A stretch of DNA of 64,000 nt from Bacteroidales bacterium. Lineage in GTDB: Bacteria; Bacteroidota; Bacteroidia; Bacteroidales; Paludibacteraceae. Both the position numbers and the translations under genes were made by a program. Below the pieces are notes generated by a model that saw only the letters and a program-made list of their open reading frames with translations, ran no database searches and had not been told where the DNA came from. The first letter of the stretch is position 1. The number at the start of each line of letters is the position of its first letter. The DNA is taken from assembly GCA_015061165.1 (NCBI GenBank), contig SUXC01000005.1, positions 62,001 to 126,000 of the forward strand. The letters run 5' to 3'. Below are positions 311-41,524 of this stretch, one piece after another.

Positions 311-3300
311 ATGAAAAGTATTTTTTCTCAAATTTCTAAATCTTCATTGTTCAATCACGCAAAACGATTGGCAATAGTTTTGGTTTTCCTCTCCTATGCT
401 GCTGCTGCTGCTGCTAATCACGGCACGCACTATTCTAAGGCAACGGTTAGTGCAAATCCTACTGGTGGTGGTACCGTGTATGTTGCCACGAGTAACTCCA
501 AACCGCAAAATGCAACACCATCAGCAACACAAAATTGTAGTGGAAGTAGTAGTAAAGATAATCAGAAATACTATTTTTGGGCTGAGGCAAATTCTAATTA
601 TACTTTCCTTAATTTTACGAGTGGGAATGATTCTTATACTACAGTCAGTGGACAAGAGATATCTGTAACAGCAAAAAGCACGAATCAAAGTGCGCCAACC
701 GAATTAAATGTGGTTGCTAATTTTAGTCCTATTATAGCAGGTGAGAATGAGATCGTTATGTATAAAATGCCTGATGGCTCTTTGAGTCCAGGTACTGCTG
801 ATGTTACGCTTAATAAAACCACCAGTTTAGATATTGAATGTAGTCGTTCAGACTTGTTTGATGTGACATCCAGTGCACCTCCTACTGGTGAAACAAACGA
901 AATAATAACTATTTCAGTAAAAAAGAAAGCAACTGCGGGAGATATTCCATTAGGACAGGCTGCTACGCTTACGCTTACGCCCGCGAATGCCAGTTTGTCG
1001 CAATTGTCGCCAGAAGCGTATAATCCAGTTGCGAGAACAATAAAGATTACAATTAAGGAACCTTTAACGGTGACCTTCAATCCTGCTGTTAAGGGTGGTT
1101 ATTACACATTCCAACAAACATCTGTAGAAGGATCCGCTGTGGAGGTAAATACTCAAAAATCAATTGGAATTGTGAGTCCTCAGGAGGGTGTTGTGGAGTT
1201 AAAAGCCTATCCAACTACAGGTTATCGTTTTAGAAGATGGGTAATTGAGCGCGAAGCTGCAGAACCTGAGTATTTATACGAAGCCGTTGTCACTCCTAAT
1301 CGATTTAACTCTGATGCCACAGTTACCGCGGAGTTCGTGGATACCAAATACGCTCAGTTTATCATTTTAGGAACAGACACCGCCAAGTACAAGTATGCGC
1401 ACTTAGATGATGCTATTGCGGTAGCACAAAGAGATGGTAAAAACGTGGTTGCTGTGTATGTGCCAGGGCGTCTGAAAATAACATCTAAAACCACAAGAGG
1501 TACGGGAATACATATTTTTGAATATAACTTAACTATTAGTTCTATTGTATCAGAAGGAAAGACAGACTGGATTCTTCCTAAACCATCATCGGGAACCTAT
1601 ACCATTCCATCTGGTATTACATTTTTAGTTCCTGGACTAGATAAGGCTGCAATACAAAACTTAATTGATAATAGGGAGGTAAGAGAAGGTTATGTATCGT
1701 ATCATACCATTAATTATAGATACAATACAGGTGCTGGTGTGAATGATGATTTTTTAGAGTTGGCTCCTACTCCCAAATGTATATGTAAGTTATCTGTAGA
1801 GGATGGAACAAAGATTGAGGTGAATGGTGCTATCTCTGTATTTTCTTCTCCGTCAGCGAGCACGGGTTATACAGGACGTCCCACTGGGTACGGACAACTC
1901 CATTTGGGGGAGAATAGTACCATCGAAGTGAATGATGGTGGTATCTTACATGTGCTTGGATATGTTACTGGCAAAAATCTCAATTCCACTGTAACTGCAA
2001 AAAAAGGTGCTACTGTTTATGAAGTATTCCAATTTACAGACTGGCGTGGAGGTACAGCAACAACGACTGGGTTTAATGGCTTTATAAGCAACGAAGTGTT
2101 CCCTGTTAGTCAATATTATATGCAGAGTATAGAAACTAAACTCATCATGGAATATGGCTCTAAGGAAGTGTTGATAGCCGCAGTAGATGTGTCATCGCCG
2201 TTTCCCGTAAGTCCTGGATTGACTGATACTATAAAAGAGACGATTACATCTTCTGGCGCAATTAAGGAGAATAGCTTGGGTCTTTTCTTGCTGGGAGAAG
2301 GCACACGATTAGAGAAATACTACGATTTTACAAATGACTCTTTATACGTAAAGATTGTAGGTACATCGAATACCTCCCGTGCTAAATTGAATTATATGTT
2401 TTTGGATCTCTCTGACTCAGGTGTTGGTTCATATTCGTTGGATTCGAGGAAATATATACTTCCCCTGAATCATAATTTCGCAGTTACACTTGATAATGTG
2501 CAATTAGAGTGCCCATATAAATTTGCTTTTATGCCAGGTTCGCGCTTAGAGGTTAGTCCTACTGCACATCTAAAGATTCAAAATAAGGTCTATGTCTATG
2601 ATGCTGAGTTAAACGTGCGTCCTTCTGACCCAGCTAAGGGCTATTGTGGTTCCACTAATGAACCGATCAAGCCTATTACATATACCTCCAAAGGAGCACC
2701 AACTGCACGAAGTAAAGAGTATGTTCGTTATCCTGCTAAAATGAAAGATGCTACATTTATCATAGATGGTACACTCACGATGGAAGATGCTAAGATTGTA
2801 GTGGATGACAAGGAAGTGAATATTCAAGGTATGCTCCACACAACCACAGATGATGCAAGTGTTCAAGGGATAGTGGGGGATTCTGTGAAAATAAAACAAG
2901 ATTTTGGCGCCAATATCACATCGAATGCCAACGGTGTGATAAATTTCAACAGATTAGGTACCACAACTGCAGTTAAACAAATAAAGCAAAATGACAGAAG
3001 CATAGAAGGCTATGAGCAAATCCCAGTTTGCAATGCATGGCTGCGCAATAGTGATACAACGCGCACTGCTGGTACAACTGCTGCACAAGGAGATACATAC
3101 ATGTATATCGATGGATTCTGGCAAAAACCTACAGCAACATTGAGTAATCCTCAAGGAACAAACTTCGTTGTTACTTTGCCAAATGACACTCTTCAATATG
3201 TTGAATGCGATGAGGTGGGAAATAATGCTACGATCACTAATGTCCAGAAAACATCGGTAGAGGGTAGTCTCTTTGTCGTTGGAGATGTTAAACGAGAAAA

Positions 3301-6300
3301 CGGAAAAGTAAAAATCCCTGTTACCTATAAACCTAACGGAGTGCACAATGCAGGTGGTACACCAAATCAAGGGAAGATTCACTTGCAGTTGACTTATGAA
3401 GATGTTTTAGGTAAATCCCACACAACGCCTGTTGAAGTAAATTTAACAGGTACAGAGAATTATAAACCAGCCTTTTCCGTTGCTATCAATGGAACTCCAA
3501 TGCAGAATGGTGAAACTTATCCAACTATCCAAGGTACTGGGGTGGGCGAAACGGATTCATTATCAGTAGTTATCACACCAAATCCAAATAATATTACTTC
3601 AACGAATTTGGTAAGTTGGATTGATGCCGCAAGTGCTACCGCCGCACCATTCGCATTCGCTTATGGAGAAGCAGATGCTTTCTTGTCGGAGGCAACTTTA
3701 TCCTATACGCCAACTGCAGTTTCTGACAATGATCCTGGAACATTAACTATTAAGGCTTCTTATCCTAATGGAGGAACGCCAGTAGATTCAACTATTGTAA
3801 TACATTTGTCGGCTAAAGTTGGTTACAAACCAAATAAATTGGAGTTTGCTCAATTTCCAACGCCCGTTTATACGACTACTGAGCCATTCTTGTTGTTGAA
3901 TGATGCAACTAATAATGCTGGCACAGCGATAACTTGTTCAACATCACCAGAGGGCATTGTTCAGATTATTGGTGATGGTACGGCTGGTAATCCTTATAAA
4001 GTTAAACCAATAGCAGAAGGATTGACCACAATCACCGTTGGACAAATTGCAAGCTCAAGCGTAGAGGGTAAAGAAATATCGGCTCAAATAAATGTAACAA
4101 GGGATGACTACACCTTGCAGTCTGTTACTTTCTGTATTGACAATAATACAGTATTCAATACGCACTTATATAATACCGCAGGCGTAACTTACAATGCAGA
4201 GAATAGTCCATATACGATTGACTTTAATTCAACATCTGCCGTTTCTACATGGCAATTCCAATTTTTAGGTATGCCAGACAAACTCACATTTACACCTTCT
4301 GGCGTAAATGCATGGAGAATTAGAGAAGGTAAACCTGTGACAGCAGGAGTTGAATCAACCATTGATTGGAGCGTTGTTACAGAGTGGACAAGCCTTACAT
4401 CAGGTACACCAGTGTCATATACTTTGCAACCCACCACTCGATATGTGGAAATTAGTTATGGAGCTACAACTCCTGATATAGGTAAAATAGTGGGTGATGT
4501 GTGTGTGACAGCATTGACTATCCGAACACAAACGGATAAACTCTATATGCCTATTTATTACACTACAGATGTGGTGACTCAAGATAGCGTCGTGTTTACA
4601 CACACGAGCGTTTCTACTCCTACTATATCTGTCGATGGCATCAATGCTTCTCCCAAAGCGCCTAAGAAATTTGGTACTGATGAAGAACCATACTACGAGA
4701 CAGTAGTTCTTCTACAAGCACCAGCAACGACAGCAGAGGGCACCTATGCACTTACAGCTACGCAAAATCCCAATTCTGCAACAGTGAATGTTACAACCTA
4801 TAAGTTCCCACAAGAACTACCTATCAAGTTGGCAACAGATAAGCCAGATAATGGTGACAGATACTACTTTGTGACAGCAGGTTCACGTTATGCACAATGG
4901 GATGCTACTAAGCGTCAAATTGTGTTCCAAAATCCAGGTTCTCAAGTAGCGCGTTCTGTTACTTTTGCTTTCAATGGTGCACCAAGTATTATTACCTTTG
5001 ATGTTTCTTCGGCAGACGGAGCACAAACTATCAATAATGCAGATTGGACCATATACGAAAGTAAAGATGGCAAAGACTTCCAACCTGCAAGTTTGGCTAA
5101 GCGTGATTCGATAGAGGATAATACTCTTATACAAGAACTTAATTACACAACCCGATATGTGCGTGTGGAATACAATGCACAATCCACTCGAGAAGTATAT
5201 TTGTCAAATCTTGTTATAGAAGGTTATCCACAAGCAATTGTTCATCCAGACAATCTGTTCTTTACGAGTGAAGAAACGAAGCACTTATTATATATGATTG
5301 CAATTAATTTGCAAAAAGTAGATTTTGAAATCGATAATGCAACAGCATTCCAAATGACCACGGATACTACATCTACTGCAACAGATTGGAAATCAATAAT
5401 TAATGCTACCGAACAAACCCATAGTACAGCTTTAGGAAAAAATAAAGTAGATACGATTTTCTTGGCAGTACGATGGTCACAGCAGACTGCTTTGGATGAA
5501 GGCAAAATTACCATTAAGAGCAAAACAAATGATAGTATCCTAACGATTATACCGCTTGTAGGATCAGATAACTACTTGACAATTGATAAAGCGGAAAATA
5601 CAGGTCTGTCAACAGGTATTCCAAATGAATACACATATCATGGCAAGAAATATACCGACTATGACTATCATGAAGTTACTTTAACGAATGCTTTTGCGAA
5701 AGATGGCACAGCATTGTTTGATTATCTATTTATTTATGGCGAAACTACCCCTCCAGAAGGTAAGACAAATATCACTCCTCCAGGTACAGATGGTTCGTTA
5801 GTCGGATCGAATGCTGTCACTCCATATTTTGTTTACAGAAAAGCCCAGAATTCGGAGCAACAATACAAAGGATACCGATTTGTTGGTAAGGTGGATAATG
5901 CAAACATTTCAGATAAGGCTATTGTTGTTGATCAAGTGACTAATGATACAATCATTACTAAGGATACAGCAAGTGTAGTGTATATAAACGTACAAGACAC
6001 CACACTTAGTATTTATATGACTGGTTTCTGCCCGTATGCAACAACGGGTCATACCAAGAACCAAGAAGGTGTATTCCTCTTCCGTGGTTCACATGGAGCA
6101 AAGTTAGATGTATATCTCGAGGACTTCTATGTTTCAAGTCGCAATAAAACAAGAAATGGTAATGCTTTCTATGGCAATAAAGATGGAGGTGAGACTTATT
6201 CCGAAAGTTATTCTCGTGGTTCAGGAGGTGTGCTTGTGTTTGAAAATGTGGATGCACAAGAGCAATTACAGAACTTTACTCCATTTGAGGTTTCTATTCA

Positions 6301-33089: not shown

Positions 33090-33140
33090 TACACTTTACA
33101 CTTTACACTCTACACTTTACACTCTACACTTTACACTTTA
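33090..33140. repeat. TTTACACT-family degenerate tandem repeat
   Basis: tacactttacactttacactctacactttacactctacactttacacttta. Confidence 0.9.
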
Positions 33141-34747
33141 GATACTAAACACTCTTTAATCCACTTATCTAACGACTCTTTTTCACCCAATCCAACTCGA
33201 TCTTTGATACGCATTCTTCGGCTCCATATTGTACGTTGGGTTAAACCTAATAACAAACATATGTCAGCGTTGTCCAATCCCAATATATACAATGCAAGTG
33301 CTTGTATATCAGTGTTTGTCAATCGTGGATAATCCTTTTGTAAACGGCTCAATAGATTGTCATAACATCCGTTAAACTCAGCAAAGAAGTTTTGCCATTG
33401 TTCTTCTGTAGAGAATATATTGGAGTCAATAAACTGTTGTGCCCAATCTGGAATGGCTTCTTCTTTCTTTTTTGTTAGCAATGCTTCTTGTAGGTTCTTG
33501 TTTAGTTCCAAACGTTGATTTAGTATTCGTTTTAGTGCATCGCGACGCAATTGCAATTCGTTTTGTAAGTCGCTGATTTGCTGTTGTGTGCGTGCTTGCT
33601 CTGTTAGCCTTTCGGTACGACGTTTCGCACTATATAAAATCAGCAATATACCCACGCACAAAATAATAATCACTACTGTACCTAATACGATATACAACTG
33701 CTGTTTCTCCAATTGCAATTGCAAGTTCTTTGCTTTTTCCATCTCATTATCAAAGTATTGTGCTGCTACAAACGCACTGGCTCTTCCGTCCTCTTCCAAT
33801 TTTCTATAGTAGGCATTATACAAGTCATATAGTGATTCGTATGCCTCTTTATAATAGCCTTTTAGATGTAGATATTGGCTTTCCCAAAGTGCATGTTGTT
33901 GCTCGCTCCATATTTGTGCTGTGGTGTCTGCTGCTAAAATATCGAGATATATCTTTGCCGAATCGGCTTTGTGTGTGCGGATATAGTATTTTACTAAATC
34001 GTATGCGTAACGCTTTCTGCCAACCTCGTGACACATGTATTGACAAATGTTGGCTATCTCTGGCGAATTGGGCTGACTGATAGATAGTTGTGCATATCGA
34101 ATGTCCATGTACAATATGCTATCCTTCATGAATCTTGCAGCATTTAGGGCTTTGTCAAAGTACATATCTCTGCCCTCACTATTGCTATTTCTGCCCAGTT
34201 CTCTATATACTGATGCTAAATAGAGTGGCAATCCTGCTTCTTCCAAATAGGGTAGTGCTTTCTGGTAGTATTCCAATGCAATATCATATAGTTGTTCACT
34301 TTCGCTAATACGTCCCATTTTGTAGTAGGTCATACCTTGAATGATAGAAGGTGCAGGGTTGTTTTCTGCCTTTTTCAAGTATTGCATAGCTTCTGTATTC
34401 TTGCCAAGCCAATTGAGATACGCACCTTGTATATAGTACGCTTCTGAGGTACTGGCTACGTCGCCATAATTGCCAAAGTAACTTGCCAATGCCTCCATAT
34501 CCGTTTCGGCAGGCAACCGCAATTCGCGCTTGAGCATCAAATGTGCTTCTGCTAAATGGTAGCGATGTTTCTCATATTCGTTCAGGTTGTTGATGTCTAT
34601 CCTCTCCAATATTTCTTGTGCCGAATCAGGCTCCAACCACACTCGTGATATAGCTTCTTGCAGTTCGTTGTTCTCAACAATTGTCCTATTGGTACATGCT
34701 ACACATACAGCTAATAGGATGAATAATATCTTTGTTTTTGCTTTCAT
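33131..34747 (-). CDS. TPR-containing membrane-anchored regulator with C-terminal HTH
   Basis: Lipoprotein-like leader, TPRs, TM (VLGTVVIIILCVGILLIL), C-terminal YPRLTNTDIQALALYILGLDNADICLLLGLTQRTIWSRRMRIKDRVGL. Confidence 0.8.
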   Translation of the reverse strand: MKAKTKILFILLAVCVACTNRTIVENNELQEAISRVWLEPDSAQEILERIDINNLNEYEKHRYHLAEAHLMLKRELRLPAETDMEALASYFGNYGDVASTSEAYYIQGAYLNWLGKNTEAMQYLKKAENNPAPSIIQGMTYYKMGRISESEQLYDIALEYYQKALPYLEEAGLPLYLASVYRELGRNSNSEGRDMYFDKALNAARFMKDSILYMDIRYAQLSISQPNSPEIANICQYMCHEVGRKRYAYDLVKYYIRTHKADSAKIYLDILAADTTAQIWSEQQHALWESQYLHLKGYYKEAYESLYDLYNAYYRKLEEDGRASAFVAAQYFDNEMEKAKNLQLQLEKQQLYIVLGTVVIIILCVGILLILYSAKRRTERLTEQARTQQQISDLQNELQLRRDALKRILNQRLELNKNLQEALLTKKKEEAIPDWAQQFIDSNIFSTEEQWQNFFAEFNGCYDNLLSRLQKDYPRLTNTDIQALALYILGLDNADICLLLGLTQRTIWSRRMRIKDRVGLGEKESLDKWIKECLVSKV

Positions 34748-34774
34748 GATCTTTGTAAATTGCCGAATGCGATG

Positions 34775-34782
34775 CAAAATTA
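34775..34782 (-). promoter_or_regulatory. -7 box TAATTTTG for TPR/HTH regulator
   Basis: CAAAATTA on + strand. Confidence 0.6.
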
Positions 34783-34816
34783 CTACTTTTTTTCCACTCT
34801 TGCAAGTGCTTTTGAG

Positions 34817-34838
34817 TGCCTGCATCAGTTTTTATTTT
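34817..34838 (+). repeat. 22-bp direct repeat copy 1
   Basis: tgcctgcatcagtttttatttt, identical copy at 34892. Confidence 0.9.
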
Positions 34839-35436: not shown

Positions 35437-35449
35437 AAAAAGATTGACA

Positions 35450-36226
35450 ATGAATAGACCTTATTATTATATAGTATTATTGCTACTCTTGTTTGCATTA
35501 CCATTGTTGGCGGAGCAGCCTGCTTCTGCCTTTGAACATGGTCGCCATTCTATTCGCATTGGTTGGGGAGATGCTTGGCTATCCAATGTGAAAGAACATT
35601 TAGGGGGAATAAACTGCGTGCCTCTTGAGAATACCGATTATTTGCAGCATATCCAAGGCATGCCTGCTTCACAGGCGCATGAGTATCTAACTGATTACCG
35701 TATGGCGCTTGATGATTCGCATAAGATTAGTTCGACAGGTCATTTCTTTGTGGGTTATCGCTATCAACTCACCTCGCTCATTGGAGTGGGCATGGAGGCT
35801 GATTTGCTTACTGCTACCGATTGTTTCCATATGGTTGATGGCTATCGTACCACTATTGATAAGCAGGCAAGGAACCAACTCTTCTACCTTACCCTAATGC
35901 CTACGGTTCGTTTCACTTACTACTGCCAACGGATTATAGAACTGTATTCGGCATTAGGTGTAGGGTACAATTGTATCGCATATACTTCTAATGTTTCTAA
36001 TGTTGTACCTACTTCGGTGTTGTTTGAGTGCCCCTTTTATAATTCACCAGTCCATGGTATGTCGTTGAATGCCACTTTGTTTGGTGTGAATGTGGGCAAC
36101 GAACATTGGTATGCTGAAGCTGAATTAGGGGGCATGTGTTCGTGGTTGTTCCTGTGGCCACAATCCACATGGGGACCTCTCTACGGTTCCCGCCTCTTCT
36201 CCCTCGCTGTCGGATATAGATTTTAA
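35450..36226 (+). CDS. Outer-membrane beta-barrel-like protein (paralog 1)
   Basis: Signal peptide; IRIGWGDAW..., ends SLAVGYRF; paralogous to 36370..37008. Confidence 0.7.
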   Translation: MNRPYYYIVLLLLLFALPLLAEQPASAFEHGRHSIRIGWGDAWLSNVKEHLGGINCVPLENTDYLQHIQGMPASQAHEYLTDYRMALDDSHKISSTGHFFVGYRYQLTSLIGVGMEADLLTATDCFHMVDGYRTTIDKQARNQLFYLTLMPTVRFTYYCQRIIELYSALGVGYNCIAYTSNVSNVVPTSVLFECPFYNSPVHGMSLNATLFGVNVGNEHWYAEAELGGMCSWLFLWPQSTWGPLYGSRLFSLAVGYRF

Positions 36227-36369: not shown

Positions 36370-37008
36370 ATGAAACGACTAATCCTAACATTGACTATTC
36401 TCATCGCTGGTGTTGCGTGGAATAGTACGCAGGCAGAAACCAAAGAAAATCGTGCCGAAACCCCTCATGAATTGCGTATCGGTGTTGGAGATTGCTCTAT
36501 CTATTATGCACAAAGATATACGAATCCACTTCACCCACCTGTAGTCTCTGGTATGGAAGGAATAGAGAAAAGCAGACACTTTGACATGATATTGCCCAAT
36601 ATTTTTATTGATTATCAATATCGAGTAAATAGTTGGTTTGCAGCAGGTGTACAAGTTAATACAATCTGGGACAAGGGAACAGATTGCACTATCAATATTG
36701 CCGAGATGGAAGCCCAGTTGATTGACTTCTCCGAAGGATGGATTCATCTAATCCCTACTGCTACATTCACTTATTTTCATAGGGAGTGGGTCAATCTGTA
36801 TTCAGGAATAGGAGTTGGCTACGCTATGCAAATTGAAGCTAAACATAAAGCTCGCAACGTATGGCATACTTTTGCTGCGCAAGCCACTTTGTTAGGCATT
36901 TCTGTTGGCAAAGGCCATTGGTTTGGTAGTTTTGAAGCGGGAGCATTATTTACAGGACGCAGTTTCCCAGATAGATGTTTCACCTTTTCTTTAGGATTTC
37001 GCTTCTAA
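36370..37008 (+). CDS. Outer-membrane beta-barrel-like protein (paralog 2)
   Basis: LRIGVGDCSIYY..., YSGIGVGYAM, ends FSLGFRF. Confidence 0.7.
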   Translation: MKRLILTLTILIAGVAWNSTQAETKENRAETPHELRIGVGDCSIYYAQRYTNPLHPPVVSGMEGIEKSRHFDMILPNIFIDYQYRVNSWFAAGVQVNTIWDKGTDCTINIAEMEAQLIDFSEGWIHLIPTATFTYFHREWVNLYSGIGVGYAMQIEAKHKARNVWHTFAAQATLLGISVGKGHWFGSFEAGALFTGRSFPDRCFTFSLGFRF

Positions 37009-37076: not shown

Positions 37077-37634
37077 ATGAAACGAATCGCATTATTTAGC
37101 TTGTTACTAATCTTTTCGGTTAATAGCACTCTGGCACAAGAGGTACAATTGCCTTATCCTTCCACTACCGCTTTGTCTTACGAAAAGAATAAAATCTATT
37201 ACGAAGGCCATCAAATCAGCAAAAGAGGCTGCCAGACAATCCTCAAATTAAATGCGGAACAAGACCTCTACAAACAGTACCGCAGCGGTTTGCGCATGTA
37301 CACCGCAGGCTGGAGTTTGATGGGTATAGGATTGGCTGTAGATGCTGCGTTTCTAACGTACTCTGCGGTTGGAATTTACTATTGGGCTAAAACTTATGAT
37401 CCAAAGCGCCCAACTATGGGACCTGCTGTACTTGTGTTTTTAGGTGCTGCAACAGTATTACCCGCATTGATTTTATTTGAAATTCCTGCTATTCCTTTGA
37501 TCTGTGTCGGTAAAAAACGCATGCAACAAAGCATTGATGCCTATAATATTTCGCTGTCAGAGCCACAAACAGCCAAAAACTATTGGAGCATACAACCTTC
37601 CAGCAATGGCATAGGTTTAGCATATCATTTTTAA
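37077..37634 (+). CDS. Membrane protein A of duplicated rSAM-associated module (copy 1)
   Basis: Paralog of 38109..38654: RSGLRMYTAGWSLMGIGLAVDA ... PTMGPA ... IPLICVGKKRMQQSIDAYNISL. Confidence 0.75.
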   Translation: MKRIALFSLLLIFSVNSTLAQEVQLPYPSTTALSYEKNKIYYEGHQISKRGCQTILKLNAEQDLYKQYRSGLRMYTAGWSLMGIGLAVDAAFLTYSAVGIYYWAKTYDPKRPTMGPAVLVFLGAATVLPALILFEIPAIPLICVGKKRMQQSIDAYNISLSEPQTAKNYWSIQPSSNGIGLAYHF

Positions 37635-37660
37635 TACCATCCCATAAAACCCTCACACAT

Positions 37661-38095
37661 ATGAAAACAAACTTTCGCCAAAAATATAATAGTCTATTGC
37701 AGCGTTTCATCCGTCTGTTCTCACTTACCAGTGTTGCCTTTGTGGTAACTGCTTGTTATGGTTCGCCGTATGCCGAGTATGATGTAGAAGGATATGTCTA
37801 TGACGAAAATGGTAATATGCTGGAGAATATGCAAGTGGTAGTCCGCACGTTTGATGCGCAATGGGATTACCCCGATACAGTCTATACCAATCAGGATGGT
37901 CATTATCATGCGGTACATAGCCTCACTTCCACGGGTGGAGATTGTATGGAGGTAATTGTGCATGATACTACAGGCGTATATGCTTCCGACTCCACGCATA
38001 TCTCCTCTGGCAAGATGAAAGTAGAAGACCAAGACTCTTGGTCCACATTCTACTCCATGCGAAACGATTTCAAACTCAAAAAGAAAGAAAACTAA
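37661..38095 (+). CDS. rSAM-associated putative lipoprotein (copy 1)
   Basis: FVVTACYGSPYAEYDVEGYVYDENGNMLENMQVVVR; ends KLKKKEN; upstream of radical SAM gene. Confidence 0.75.
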   Translation: MKTNFRQKYNSLLQRFIRLFSLTSVAFVVTACYGSPYAEYDVEGYVYDENGNMLENMQVVVRTFDAQWDYPDTVYTNQDGHYHAVHSLTSTGGDCMEVIVHDTTGVYASDSTHISSGKMKVEDQDSWSTFYSMRNDFKLKKKEN

Positions 38096-38108
38096 AAATG
38101 CAGTCGTT

Positions 38109-38654
38109 ATGAAGAAGTTTTTTGGAATATTTATGCTCATGTTGCTAACATGCAATGTGTTGGCGGAGGATGTGATTTATCCTAGTGTGACCGCGTCACC
38201 CCTATCACGCAAAGGTAATAAGTACTACTACAATGGCGAGAAGATCAGCCAAAGGGATTGTCAAGCATATCTTTTGTTCAATGCTGATGAAGATATCTAT
38301 AATCAATTCCGTAAGGGACGTCAGATGTATAGTACAGGTTGGGGATTGCTCGGAACAGGTTTAGCATTGGATGCTTTCGCTTTAGGGTTTACTCTTGGCA
38401 TTTGTTTACCATTTGAGCAAGACCCCGAACGCCCAACAATGGGTCCTATGCTTGGCGTAATGCTGATAAGCCTCCCCATAGCTGCGGGGGGATTAGCTTT
38501 TACTATTACGGGTATTCCGTTGGTATGCGTTGGTCAAAAAAAGATGAAGAATAGTTTTGATGCATACAATGTTTCACTGTTATCAACCCATATCCAACCC
38601 GAATTGCGCCTACAAGCCAACATCAATGGCATAGGATTGGTATGTAGTTTTTAA
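38109..38654 (+). CDS. Membrane protein A of duplicated rSAM-associated module (copy 2)
   Basis: RKGRQMYSTGWGLLGTGLALDA ... ERPTMGPM ... IPLVCVGQKKMKNSFDAYNVSL. Confidence 0.75.
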   Translation: MKKFFGIFMLMLLTCNVLAEDVIYPSVTASPLSRKGNKYYYNGEKISQRDCQAYLLFNADEDIYNQFRKGRQMYSTGWGLLGTGLALDAFALGFTLGICLPFEQDPERPTMGPMLGVMLISLPIAAGGLAFTITGIPLVCVGQKKMKNSFDAYNVSLLSTHIQPELRLQANINGIGLVCSF

Positions 38655-38666
38655 AATAGTTTTTTT

Positions 38667-39110
38667 ATGAAAAAGATTAAAAACAAATACCATTTATTGG
38701 TAAGCAGTCTGCTGACTACATTATTGGGATTCTTTGGTGTGTCATGTGATAGGGGAGGTGGTATGGTTTGTCTGTATGGTCCAATGCCTGTTGATGATAT
38801 GGCTGCATACAAAGTGACTGGACAGATAACTGATGAGCAAAACCAACCATTGGATTCTATGCGGGTACATTTCTATTTGGATCAATTTGTCCGTACGGAC
38901 GATTTCCATAGCGATAGTATTGGTGGATATCAAGTAGAGTTGTGGACATGGAAAGGAGCGGATACCTTGCATTTAGTTGTGTACGACCCAAAGAAAGAGT
39001 ACGATTCTTACACGACTAAAGTGGCTATATCAGACATGGATGCTCAACCGCATGAAGAGTTAAGTTGTTCCTATTCGGTAGAATTAGATATCCAACTCAA
39101 AAAGAAATAA
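38667..39110 (+). CDS. rSAM-associated putative lipoprotein (copy 2)
   Basis: GFFGVSCDRGGGMVCLYGPMPVDDMAAYKVTGQITDEQNQPLDSMRVHF; ends IQLKKK. Confidence 0.75.
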   Translation: MKKIKNKYHLLVSSLLTTLLGFFGVSCDRGGGMVCLYGPMPVDDMAAYKVTGQITDEQNQPLDSMRVHFYLDQFVRTDDFHSDSIGGYQVELWTWKGADTLHLVVYDPKKEYDSYTTKVAISDMDAQPHEELSCSYSVELDIQLKKK

Positions 39111-39120
39111 CATTTCCTAG

Positions 39121-39208
39121 CCGCTCGAGGAAGTTGATTCGAGCGGAAATAATCGTTCGAACGAATGTGAGATAAGAATGTTGTTTAAGTTGTCGTTAAT
39201 TAAAAAAT
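39121..39208 (+). promoter_or_regulatory. Hairpin + palindrome + TTGTTTAAGTTGT leader before radical SAM gene
   Basis: CCGCTCGA/TCGAGCGG stem, TCGTTCGAACGA palindrome, ttgtttaagttgtcgttaattaaaaaat. Confidence 0.65.
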
Positions 39209-39212
39209 CCTT

Positions 39213-40328
39213 ATGAACCTCCGCAAACGCATCATCTTCGAGCTTGAGCGGCTACGCCGCAAGAACCTTCAGCAGTTGCACCCGCTGCAACAACTCTTTT
39301 GGGAGTCTACCCTCCGTTGCAATGTCCATTGTCTGCACTGTGGTAGCGACTGCTCCAGCAGCGAAATCACACCCGATATGCCAGCCGAGGATTTCCTCCG
39401 TGTGATTGACCAGTCCGTTACCCCTCATGTGGATCCACATAAGGTACTAATCATCATCTCTGGAGGCGAACCACTTATGCGCACCGACCTCGCTCAGGTG
39501 GGCAAGGCACTCAAACAGCGTGGTTATCCTTGGGGTATGGTGACCAATGGTCTGGCGCTTACCGAAAAACGCTTCAAGGAACTCCTGCAAAGTGGTCTTC
39601 GCTCTATGGCGATTAGCTTTGATGGCATGGAACTTGACCATAACTGGCTTCGCCAACACCCCCTCGCTTTTGAGGGTGCCACTCGCGCTATCAAACTCGC
39701 AGCGGCACTACAGCGCAGCGATCTACCATCTACAGGCGCAGCCGTTCTACAGCGTAGCGCTCTCACTTGGGATGTGGTAACATGCGTGAACCAACGCTCT
39801 ATCCGTCATTTGGATGAGATGCAGCAGTATCTATGGTCTATTGGTGTGCGCAACTGGCGATTGATCACCATTGACCCTATGGGGCGCGCAGCAGAAAATC
39901 CCGAACTGTTGCTCACGCCCGAGCAGCACCGTTACGTATTGGATTATATCCGCGAGAAACGCAAAGAGGGTTTGCATATCTCCTACTCCTGCGAGGGCTT
40001 TATGCCTGATTATGAGGGCGAAATCCGTGATCACCTCTTTCATTGTGCAGCAGGCGTGAGTGTGGCAAGTATTTTGATTGACGGCAGTATTTCGGCATGC
40101 ACGAGTATCCGAGGTAAGTACTATCAGGGCAATATCTACCACGATGATTTTTGGGATGTCTGGGAAAATCGCTTCGAACCCTACCGCAATCGTGAGTGGA
40201 TGAAGCAGTTGGAGCCATGCAAAGACTGCAAGCTCTTCTGCTACTGCGAGGGTGGGGGCATGCACCTCCGCCGAGAAGACGGCTCGCTCATGCTCTGTCA
40301 TTATAATAAATTATTAGCACAAGCATAA
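39213..40328 (+). CDS. Radical SAM/SPASM protein of the rSAM/lipoprotein system
   Basis: CNVHCLHC (CxxxCxxC), GGEPLMR, C-terminal Cys-rich CKDCKLFCYCEGG. Confidence 0.9.
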   Translation: MNLRKRIIFELERLRRKNLQQLHPLQQLFWESTLRCNVHCLHCGSDCSSSEITPDMPAEDFLRVIDQSVTPHVDPHKVLIIISGGEPLMRTDLAQVGKALKQRGYPWGMVTNGLALTEKRFKELLQSGLRSMAISFDGMELDHNWLRQHPLAFEGATRAIKLAAALQRSDLPSTGAAVLQRSALTWDVVTCVNQRSIRHLDEMQQYLWSIGVRNWRLITIDPMGRAAENPELLLTPEQHRYVLDYIREKRKEGLHISYSCEGFMPDYEGEIRDHLFHCAAGVSVASILIDGSISACTSIRGKYYQGNIYHDDFWDVWENRFEPYRNREWMKQLEPCKDCKLFCYCEGGGMHLRREDGSLMLCHYNKLLAQA

Positions 40329-40360: not shown

Positions 40361-41524
40361 ATGAAGAAGATTTTGCTATTTGTATGCGTTTGCATGGGAG
40401 TAATGTTAGTAAGTTGTGAACTTAATGGTCCTTCTCTAAAGAAGGTGGTTACAGGAGACGCTACAAACATCACAGATTATTCCGCTCAATTGCATGGAAC
40501 GTTGAATGTAGATCCCGAAGGCTATGGACATTTGTATTATGGCATAATAATAGCCAAATCACAAGAGGAAATTAAAAACCATGAGGGCAAATACTACGAA
40601 TCCATTACCTTGGAGGGTCGGGATTTCTTAGTAAACGTATATGGCTTATCGCCTAATACAAAATACTACTATTGTACTTGGGTGGCAATCAATCAGATTG
40701 ATAATAAATCTTTCGGAAAGATGAAAGCATTTACAACATTGGACGGCACTGGTGTGCCTGAAGGAGAGGAACACCCTAACACCAATTATGTGGCTAAGCC
40801 CTTCTCTGTGGGGTCGAAACGTCAAGTATATTTCTCTCCCGGTAACTTGCAGTATCAGCCCAATGCCACCATCTGGCGTTTTGCTATCCAACAGGTGGAT
40901 TATCTGGGGGCAGCCAATCGAAACACAGCATTGACCTACGACGGATGGATTGATCTGTTCGGTTGGAGTACCGAAGAAGGATTCTCCTATTTTGGTGTGA
41001 GCACCGATACGGCAGCCAACTACTATAGTGGCAATTTCAAGGATTGGGGCTGCAAGCGCATAGGTAAAGACGAAGCCAATACGTGGCGCACATTGAGCTT
41101 GGATGAGTGGTCGTATCTGACATCCAAGCGAAATAACTGCCGTGAACTCATTGGCTGTGCGATGGTGATGGACGTTAAAGGATTGATCCTATTGCCTGAT
41201 GATTGGCAATGTCCTGAAGGAGTTACTTTCAAACCAGGCTTCTATCCATCGGAAGACAAAGCTGGCTATGGCGCGCATCAGAACATAGATGAAAATGAGT
41301 GGCAAGCCCTTGAGCATGCAGGCGCAATTTTCTTGCCAGCAGCTGGCTATCGTGCAGGATTAGATATAGGCAATGTGCAAATAGATGCCTTCTACTGGTC
41401 TTCCACCGCCAATGAGAAGAATAAGTCCTATTATATGTTCTTCTCAGCGGGTGGGGCAGAGATGCGTACCCGAGAGCGCTATCACGCACATAGTGTACGA
41501 TTGGTGAGAGACGTCAATAAATAG
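40361..41524 (+). CDS. Lipoprotein with FN3-like and FISUMP-like domain
   Basis: LFVCVCMGVMLVSCELNG lipobox; YYYCTWVAIN...; VYFSPGNLQYQP; FYWSSTANEKNKSYYMFFSAGG...HSVRLVRDV. Confidence 0.75.
   Translation: MKKILLFVCVCMGVMLVSCELNGPSLKKVVTGDATNITDYSAQLHGTLNVDPEGYGHLYYGIIIAKSQEEIKNHEGKYYESITLEGRDFLVNVYGLSPNTKYYYCTWVAINQIDNKSFGKMKAFTTLDGTGVPEGEEHPNTNYVAKPFSVGSKRQVYFSPGNLQYQPNATIWRFAIQQVDYLGAANRNTALTYDGWIDLFGWSTEEGFSYFGVSTDTAANYYSGNFKDWGCKRIGKDEANTWRTLSLDEWSYLTSKRNNCRELIGCAMVMDVKGLILLPDDWQCPEGVTFKPGFYPSEDKAGYGAHQNIDENEWQALEHAGAIFLPAAGYRAGLDIGNVQIDAFYWSSTANEKNKSYYMFFSAGGAEMRTRERYHAHSVRLVRDVNK

Follow-up and report, generated by a model that had tools for sequence, protein, structure and literature searches.

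A radical SAM/lipoprotein locus of a rumen bacterium and an XYG(x)P motif as its probable site of modification

Radical SAM enzymes encoded beside lipoproteins recur in gut and rumen Bacteroidales, and the locus described here, from a rumen bacterium, raises the question of what such an enzyme does to its partners. The analysed stretch of 64,000 nucleotides (the window) contains five ORFs at positions 37077-40328, all on the + strand and separated by gaps of 12-102 bp. ORF reading gives the order A1, B1, A2, B2 and a radical SAM enzyme (rSAM), at the positions and in the order that an earlier note on this DNA had reported. That note had named a pairing of the families TIGR04133 and TIGR04134, and profile searches bear this out: the enzyme scores 513.6 bits on TIGR04133 (cut-off 425), B1 scores 71.9 bits on TIGR04134 (cut-off 39.8), and B2, at 37.5 bits, falls just under the latter cut-off. 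NCBIfam holds the two families as hypothetical equivalogs (rSAM_w_lipo and lipo_with_rSAM), named without a substrate site or chemistry, and the window enzyme and B1 are that pair. A literature search returned no mention of TIGR04133 or TIGR04134. The enzyme has the CNVHCLHC motif read earlier, its SPASM domain is confirmed by Pfam (30 bits, cut-off 21.5), and its nearest named relatives, 81-90% identical, come from gut MAGs of cattle, buffalo, deer and yak; the genome is of Paludibacteraceae-like Bacteroidales type. The features of the locus are as follows.

37077-37634, + strand: A1, 185 aa, N-terminal signal, predicted two-helix membrane hairpin; local passenger
37661-38095, + strand: B1, TIGR04134 lipoprotein and proposed substrate, type-2 signal peptide; its CarboxypepD_reg-like domain lies below the Pfam cut-off
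37661-37753, + strand: signal peptide of B1 and proposed leader, residues 1-31, ending in FSLTSVAFVVTA directly before Cys
37754-37768, + strand: XYGxP site of B1, C32-Y33-G34-S35-P36, with the predicted lipidated Cys as X
38109-38654, + strand: A2, 181 aa, paralogue of A1
38667-39110, + strand: B2, TIGR04134-like lipoprotein and proposed second substrate, type-1-like signal peptide
38667-38744, + strand: signal peptide of B2 and proposed leader, residues 1-26
38772-38789, + strand: XYGxxP site of B2, L36-Y37-G38-P39-M40-P41, read from the sequence
39213-40328, + strand: rSAM, a TIGR04133 radical SAM/SPASM enzyme by profile score, proposed XYG maturase
39219-39278, + strand: N-terminal helix of rSAM, residues 3-22, candidate leader-binding element; kept in TIGR04133, absent in the Nostoc PlpX relative
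39318-39347, + strand: CNVHCLHC plus GS of rSAM (C36-S45), the SAM cluster motif including the HCGS signature, which the splicease clade also has

Directly 3' of the enzyme lies a FISUMP-type lipoprotein (window 40361-41524), as is also the case at loci L036 and L039, and in the window's own genome another protein of this type adjoins the A-like genes of contig C3 (L194). The VYGLSP of the downstream lipoprotein is far from the lipobox and was left out of the motif counts. On the 5' side of A1 are two adjacent, apparently paralogous beta-barrel-like outer-membrane proteins (window 35444-36226 and 36370-37008) and, on the - strand, a membrane protein with TPR and a C-terminal helix-turn-helix (33131-34825), which resembles the BT3442 family weakly (43 bits, cut-off 940). 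An Rfam search gave no match, and a promoter scan, which found fewer sites than in shuffled sequences, was uninformative.

The composition of the system has to be settled before its function. The earlier note had proposed that A is an obligate third component, which could be a partner or a substrate. A1 and A2 have no match in Pfam or NCBIfam, and their likeness, already remarked upon, extends over the full length (41% identical, E 4e-47), with MYTAGW/MYSTGW, RPTMGP and IPL(I/V)CVGxKxM...DAYN in common. A genes stand near the enzyme in the window and at seven other loci (L031, L035, L036, L039, L043, L057 and L081), and directly 5' of it in L031, L057 and L081, as an obligate role would lead one to expect. 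However, A lies within 4 kb of the enzyme in 6 of 80 long loci, and a co-occurrence survey in the window's genus found no association between A and TIGR04133 (18 genomes with both, 8 with the enzyme only, 9 with A only, 2 with neither; p = 0.69). The 27 of 61 genomes that have A all belong to this genus, whereas TIGR04133 occurs in other families and phyla; A was found in 0 of 24 sampled genomes from other families of the order, five of which have TIGR04133 over cut-off. Four further A matches lie on another contig of the window's own genome. Three tandem proteins of 321-373 aa (L194, G000:C3:180500-185500) have C-termini matching the A family, which suggests a larger membrane protein family of which A1 and A2 are the short forms. 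The AlphaFold2 model of A1, of moderate confidence (pLDDT 70), consists of a two-helix hairpin and a terminal beta hairpin. Because A does not co-occur with the enzyme, is restricted to one genus and adjoins the enzyme in few loci, we take it as a genus-restricted two-helix membrane protein, a local passenger and no obligate part of the system; the proposal fails by the refuting condition that the note itself had set, and an obligate role is hardly credible.

B1 and B2 are real but old paralogues, as their identity of 30% (E 7e-10) indicates. The terminal LKKK ascribed to both closes B2, and in B1 it is followed by EN. The proposed duplication of an A-B module holds for the paralogy within each pair, A1 with A2 and B1 with B2, but not as recent copying of an A-B unit, which was rejected on the low identity of B1 and B2, their different signal-peptide classes and the B1/B2-like pairs lacking A at L042 and L041. 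The CYGSP/LYGPMP segment is also common to B1 and B2; it had been ranked as one resemblance among several, and here it is the informative feature.

Partners of TIGR04133 enzymes were surveyed at 111 related loci, where the partner gene usually lies directly upstream of the enzyme, often with a 4-base overlap. The partners are very diverse, some with a CarboxypepD_reg-like domain and many domain-free and only 60-110 aa long; many of these short proteins have two to five copies of the motif, and the TIGR04134 profile scores them weakly or misses them. What they have in common is a lipobox, a signal peptide of distinctive type and the XYG(x)P motif, present one to five times. An alignment of 17 assorted lipoproteins has four invariant columns, M1, Y, G and P, and two that are nearly so, a signal-peptide Asn and a Gly; judged by alignment, XYG(x)P is the sole invariant feature of the partners besides the start Met. 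Of 152 lipoprotein sites, 145 have Gly and 7 have Ala after the Tyr, Pro stands at +3 in 128, and X is Lys in 70, Leu in 26, Met in 24, Glu in 16 and Cys in 6. YG is not absolute, given the seven Ala sites and the LYA or MYA of GDL-family peptides. The motif stands 0 to 67 residues past the lipobox Cys, and X is the lipid Cys itself in 26 unclustered proteins.

The signal peptides fall into two classes. Class 1, which B2 resembles, reads MKxKfLtRxNALIgxLLgxLGfgsC; class 2, which B1 resembles, reads MRKLIDxFLxxGIKLCxLTGVAFTFAAC and is followed at once by YGPAP, with the lipid Cys as X. A rare exception is a 474-aa protein at L081 (2355-3779), which has a type-1 signal peptide and no YGxP near its N-terminus. 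The XYG(x)P motif and the signal-peptide classes appear to be a new description for TIGR04133/TIGR04134.

The distribution of the lipoproteins follows that of the enzyme. TIGR04133 exceeds its cut-off in 31 of 61 genomes (5 of these in other families) and TIGR04134 in 20. Of these 20 genomes, 19 also have TIGR04133 over cut-off, and the remaining one, G027, has a divergent homologue (285.7 bits). A profile built on signal peptide and motif matched in 26 genomes. Within the genus, lipoproteins found by this profile occur in 24 of 26 enzyme-positive genomes and in 1 of 11 others (p 2e-6; owing to shared ancestry among the genomes, p-values here overstate independence). The lone exception among the 11 is G027, where the divergent rSAM lies beside a VYGPPP lipoprotein, and of the two enzyme-positive genomes without a profile match, one (G029) has LYGVPP. 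The motif is also carried by lipoproteins that are not linked to the enzyme, as found with two different profiles; one, of 74 aa with LYGPPA, is in the window's own genome (L180). XYG(x)P lipoproteins are thus essentially confined to enzyme-bearing genomes.

Outside the genus the motif appears as CYGMP in Treponema and EYGSP in Parabacteroides. On plasmid pTS1 of Treponema saccharophilum (L123) a TIGR04133/TIGR04134 pair adjoins a serine recombinase gene, which, on a spirochaete plasmid, suggests horizontal transfer. One MAG (RUG14367) has two TIGR04133 loci on different contigs (L048 and L067). A distant genome of the phylum (L171, G222, ORF near 980) has TIGR04133 with an upstream partner that keeps EYGV and has no clear lipobox Cys.

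The motif of a lipoprotein family could serve sorting, folding or protein binding, and the target of the enzyme could then lie elsewhere: the lipid Cys, a different region of the protein or, as with AhbD and NirJ, a small molecule. Relatives of these two enzymes are close by profile score, and the proteins in which X is the lipid Cys would suit a role linked to lipidation. Lipoproteins picked solely by the signal-peptide Asn, with near-duplicates removed, have 85 YGxP in 4733 residues, compared with 74 in 455443 background residues, an enrichment of about 110 times; Asn and motif are associated (56/14 vs 13/149, p 8e-28, near-duplicates removed and kinship ignored). A generic lipoprotein sorting motif is disfavoured because the lipoproteins track the enzyme, being essentially missing from enzyme-less genomes. 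Its variable distance from the Cys and its varying copy number also speak against it, as does its presence beside PlpX relatives in partners that are not lipoproteins, those with a Nif11 leader among them. This reading is improbable, and there are good grounds in the sequence comparisons to regard XYG as the modified site.

The same tripeptide is the target of a known reaction. Tyramine is cut out at XYG by PlpXY, whose natural sites are MYG and LYG (PMC10533398; PMC11002830; see also PMC10373908), and the resulting spliceotides inhibit proteases (PMC11117315). PlpX-type spliceases belong to TIGR04103, nif11-class maturase 3. The two systems are alike in having an XYG site in the partner (CYG in B1, LYG in B2, LYGLPP in Nostoc), and TIGR04103 and TIGR04133 enzymes share HCGS, W215, G262 and E268. 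The Nostoc enzyme scores 853 bits on TIGR04103 (cut-off 725), and its adjoining precursor ends in IALYGLPPELF, close to ICLYGIPPEVYQ of L077 and RVLYGVPPEVYQ of L034. Two further PlpX relatives in Bacteroidota have neighbours with LYGTPP (L117) and with six copies of KYGYP (L119). The L117 neighbour is a 165-aa ORF on the - strand that ends in LYGTPPVPLYQAPSK, with LYGTPP near the C-terminus, beside a TIGR04103-like enzyme; its homologue at L116 is without LYGTPP. In L119 (G300) a TIGR04103-like rSAM with a long C-terminal extension (1468-2919) stands next to a protein of 214 aa (2955-3599) that repeats KYGYP(C/G) six times and matches nothing in Pfam or NCBIfam, a candidate multi-site splicease substrate in Bacteroidales. 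A chagasin-like assignment of this cargo was dropped for want of Pfam support.

With 93.8 bits on TIGR04103, far under the cut-off and level with AhbD (94.9), the window enzyme places TIGR04133 as a probable sister family and not a member. A tree unites TIGR04133 with TIGR04103/GDL against NirJ, TIGR04053, TIGR04347, AhbD-like enzymes and PqqE (support 96/87). An earlier tree without AhbD gave 89/77 and kept the alternative of TIGR04133 with NirJ/TIGR04053 (p 0.17); AU tests on the AhbD-like set are unreliable, row L170 grouping apart from the other AhbD-like rows. HCGS after the SAM-cluster motif is common to the TIGR04133 and TIGR04103/GDL groups and occurs in 0 of 13 others; across the two HCGS groups G44 is found in 15/15 and 92%, and S45 in all. 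TIGR04133 is probably the sister group of the TIGR04103/GDL clade. The same clade includes TIGR03913, the GDL-motif peptide maturase, whose DUF1843 peptides have LYGVG, PYGPA or LYA near the N-terminus; unlike the TIGR04133 partners, these are small non-lipoproteins, and most lack YGxP.

TIGR04133 also differs from the spliceases. Its enzymes have an extra N-terminal helix, and B1 and B2 carry a lipoprotein signal peptide in place of the Nif11 leader of TIGR04103 precursors; Pfam gave no match to a Nif11 or nitrile-hydratase-type leader in either. Unlike PlpXY, TIGR04133 loci have no PlpY-like partner: no third conserved family was found within 4 kb near most of 80 loci, and a PlpY or RRE partner was rejected on this ground. 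This absence would fit an enzyme that acts at XYG(x)P with other chemistry, such as crosslinking at the Tyr (cyclophane or ether), epimerisation, or loss of the Tyr side chain without backbone splicing. SPASM enzymes perform many chemistries, and the nearest solved folds to TIGR04133 (anSME, SuiB, SkfB and PqqE) include no splicease. The closest, anSME, belongs to the SPASM enzymes and targets a short motif in export-destined proteins; it differs in motif and in reaction (Cys/Ser to formylglycine). The conserved Pro at +3 and the variable residue after Gly are, moreover, unexplained by splicing alone. Set against these points are the probable sister position to the TIGR04103/GDL clade, the common HCGS and the occurrence of XYGxP next to an enzyme scoring over the TIGR04103 cut-off. 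We consider other chemistry rather unlikely, and the analogy with PlpXY tips the balance slightly towards splicing at XYG by TIGR04133.

The locus would then encode a RiPP-type, lipoprotein-directed modification system in which TIGR04133 acts at XYG, with tyramine excision as the modestly favoured reaction. In the cytoplasm, before export, the enzyme would use the unusual signal peptide of the lipoproteins as its leader; since no PlpY-like gene is conserved nearby, the extra N-terminal helix of the enzyme may be the element that reads it. The enzyme would modify the XYG(x)P site or sites following the signal peptide, with Cys32-Tyr33-Gly34 of B1 and Leu36-Tyr37-Gly38 of B2 as the predicted sites in the window. 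Tyramine excision would bring a predicted loss of C8H9NO, about 135.07 Da. Export and lipidation of the lipoprotein would follow, and signal peptidase II, given the lipobox, would cut off the leader. The expected product is a membrane-anchored ketoamide lipoprotein (alpha-keto-beta-amino-acid), with A1 and A2 as passengers. Since the motif matches that of known tyrosine-excising enzymes, a reactive amino acid that may block proteases is probably built into these lipoproteins. A role in anchored protease inhibition, with the P1 preference set by X (Lys, Met/Leu or Glu), is speculative.

A wider proposal, put forward tentatively and short of an even chance, is that TIGR04133/TIGR04134 forms a lipoprotein splicease system, with the signal peptide serving also as the RiPP leader and signal peptidase II taking the part of leader peptidase. 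Each anchored lipoprotein would bear one or more alpha-keto-beta-amino-acid warheads, and in one class the lipidated cysteine itself would be turned into a beta residue. Gut and rumen Bacteroidales would thereby display a self-encoded set of protease inhibitors whose P1 residue is varied from gene to gene.

Scott et al. 2022 (Chem 8:2659) are said to have reported spliceases widely across bacteria, and if that work covers TIGR04133, the part concerning splicing chemistry would already be known. For TIGR04133, a family without assigned function that is found repeatedly in gut and rumen Bacteroidales and also in Treponema, the present analysis offers a candidate substrate site and predicts a specific change in mass. 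If the proposal is true, gut bacteria equip their lipoproteins with backbone beta-amino acids and ketoamide electrophiles, and a signal for export can at the same time be a RiPP leader. It would bear on protease resistance, on how microbes interact with the host and with one another at the cell surface, and on compact splicing tools that may need no partner.
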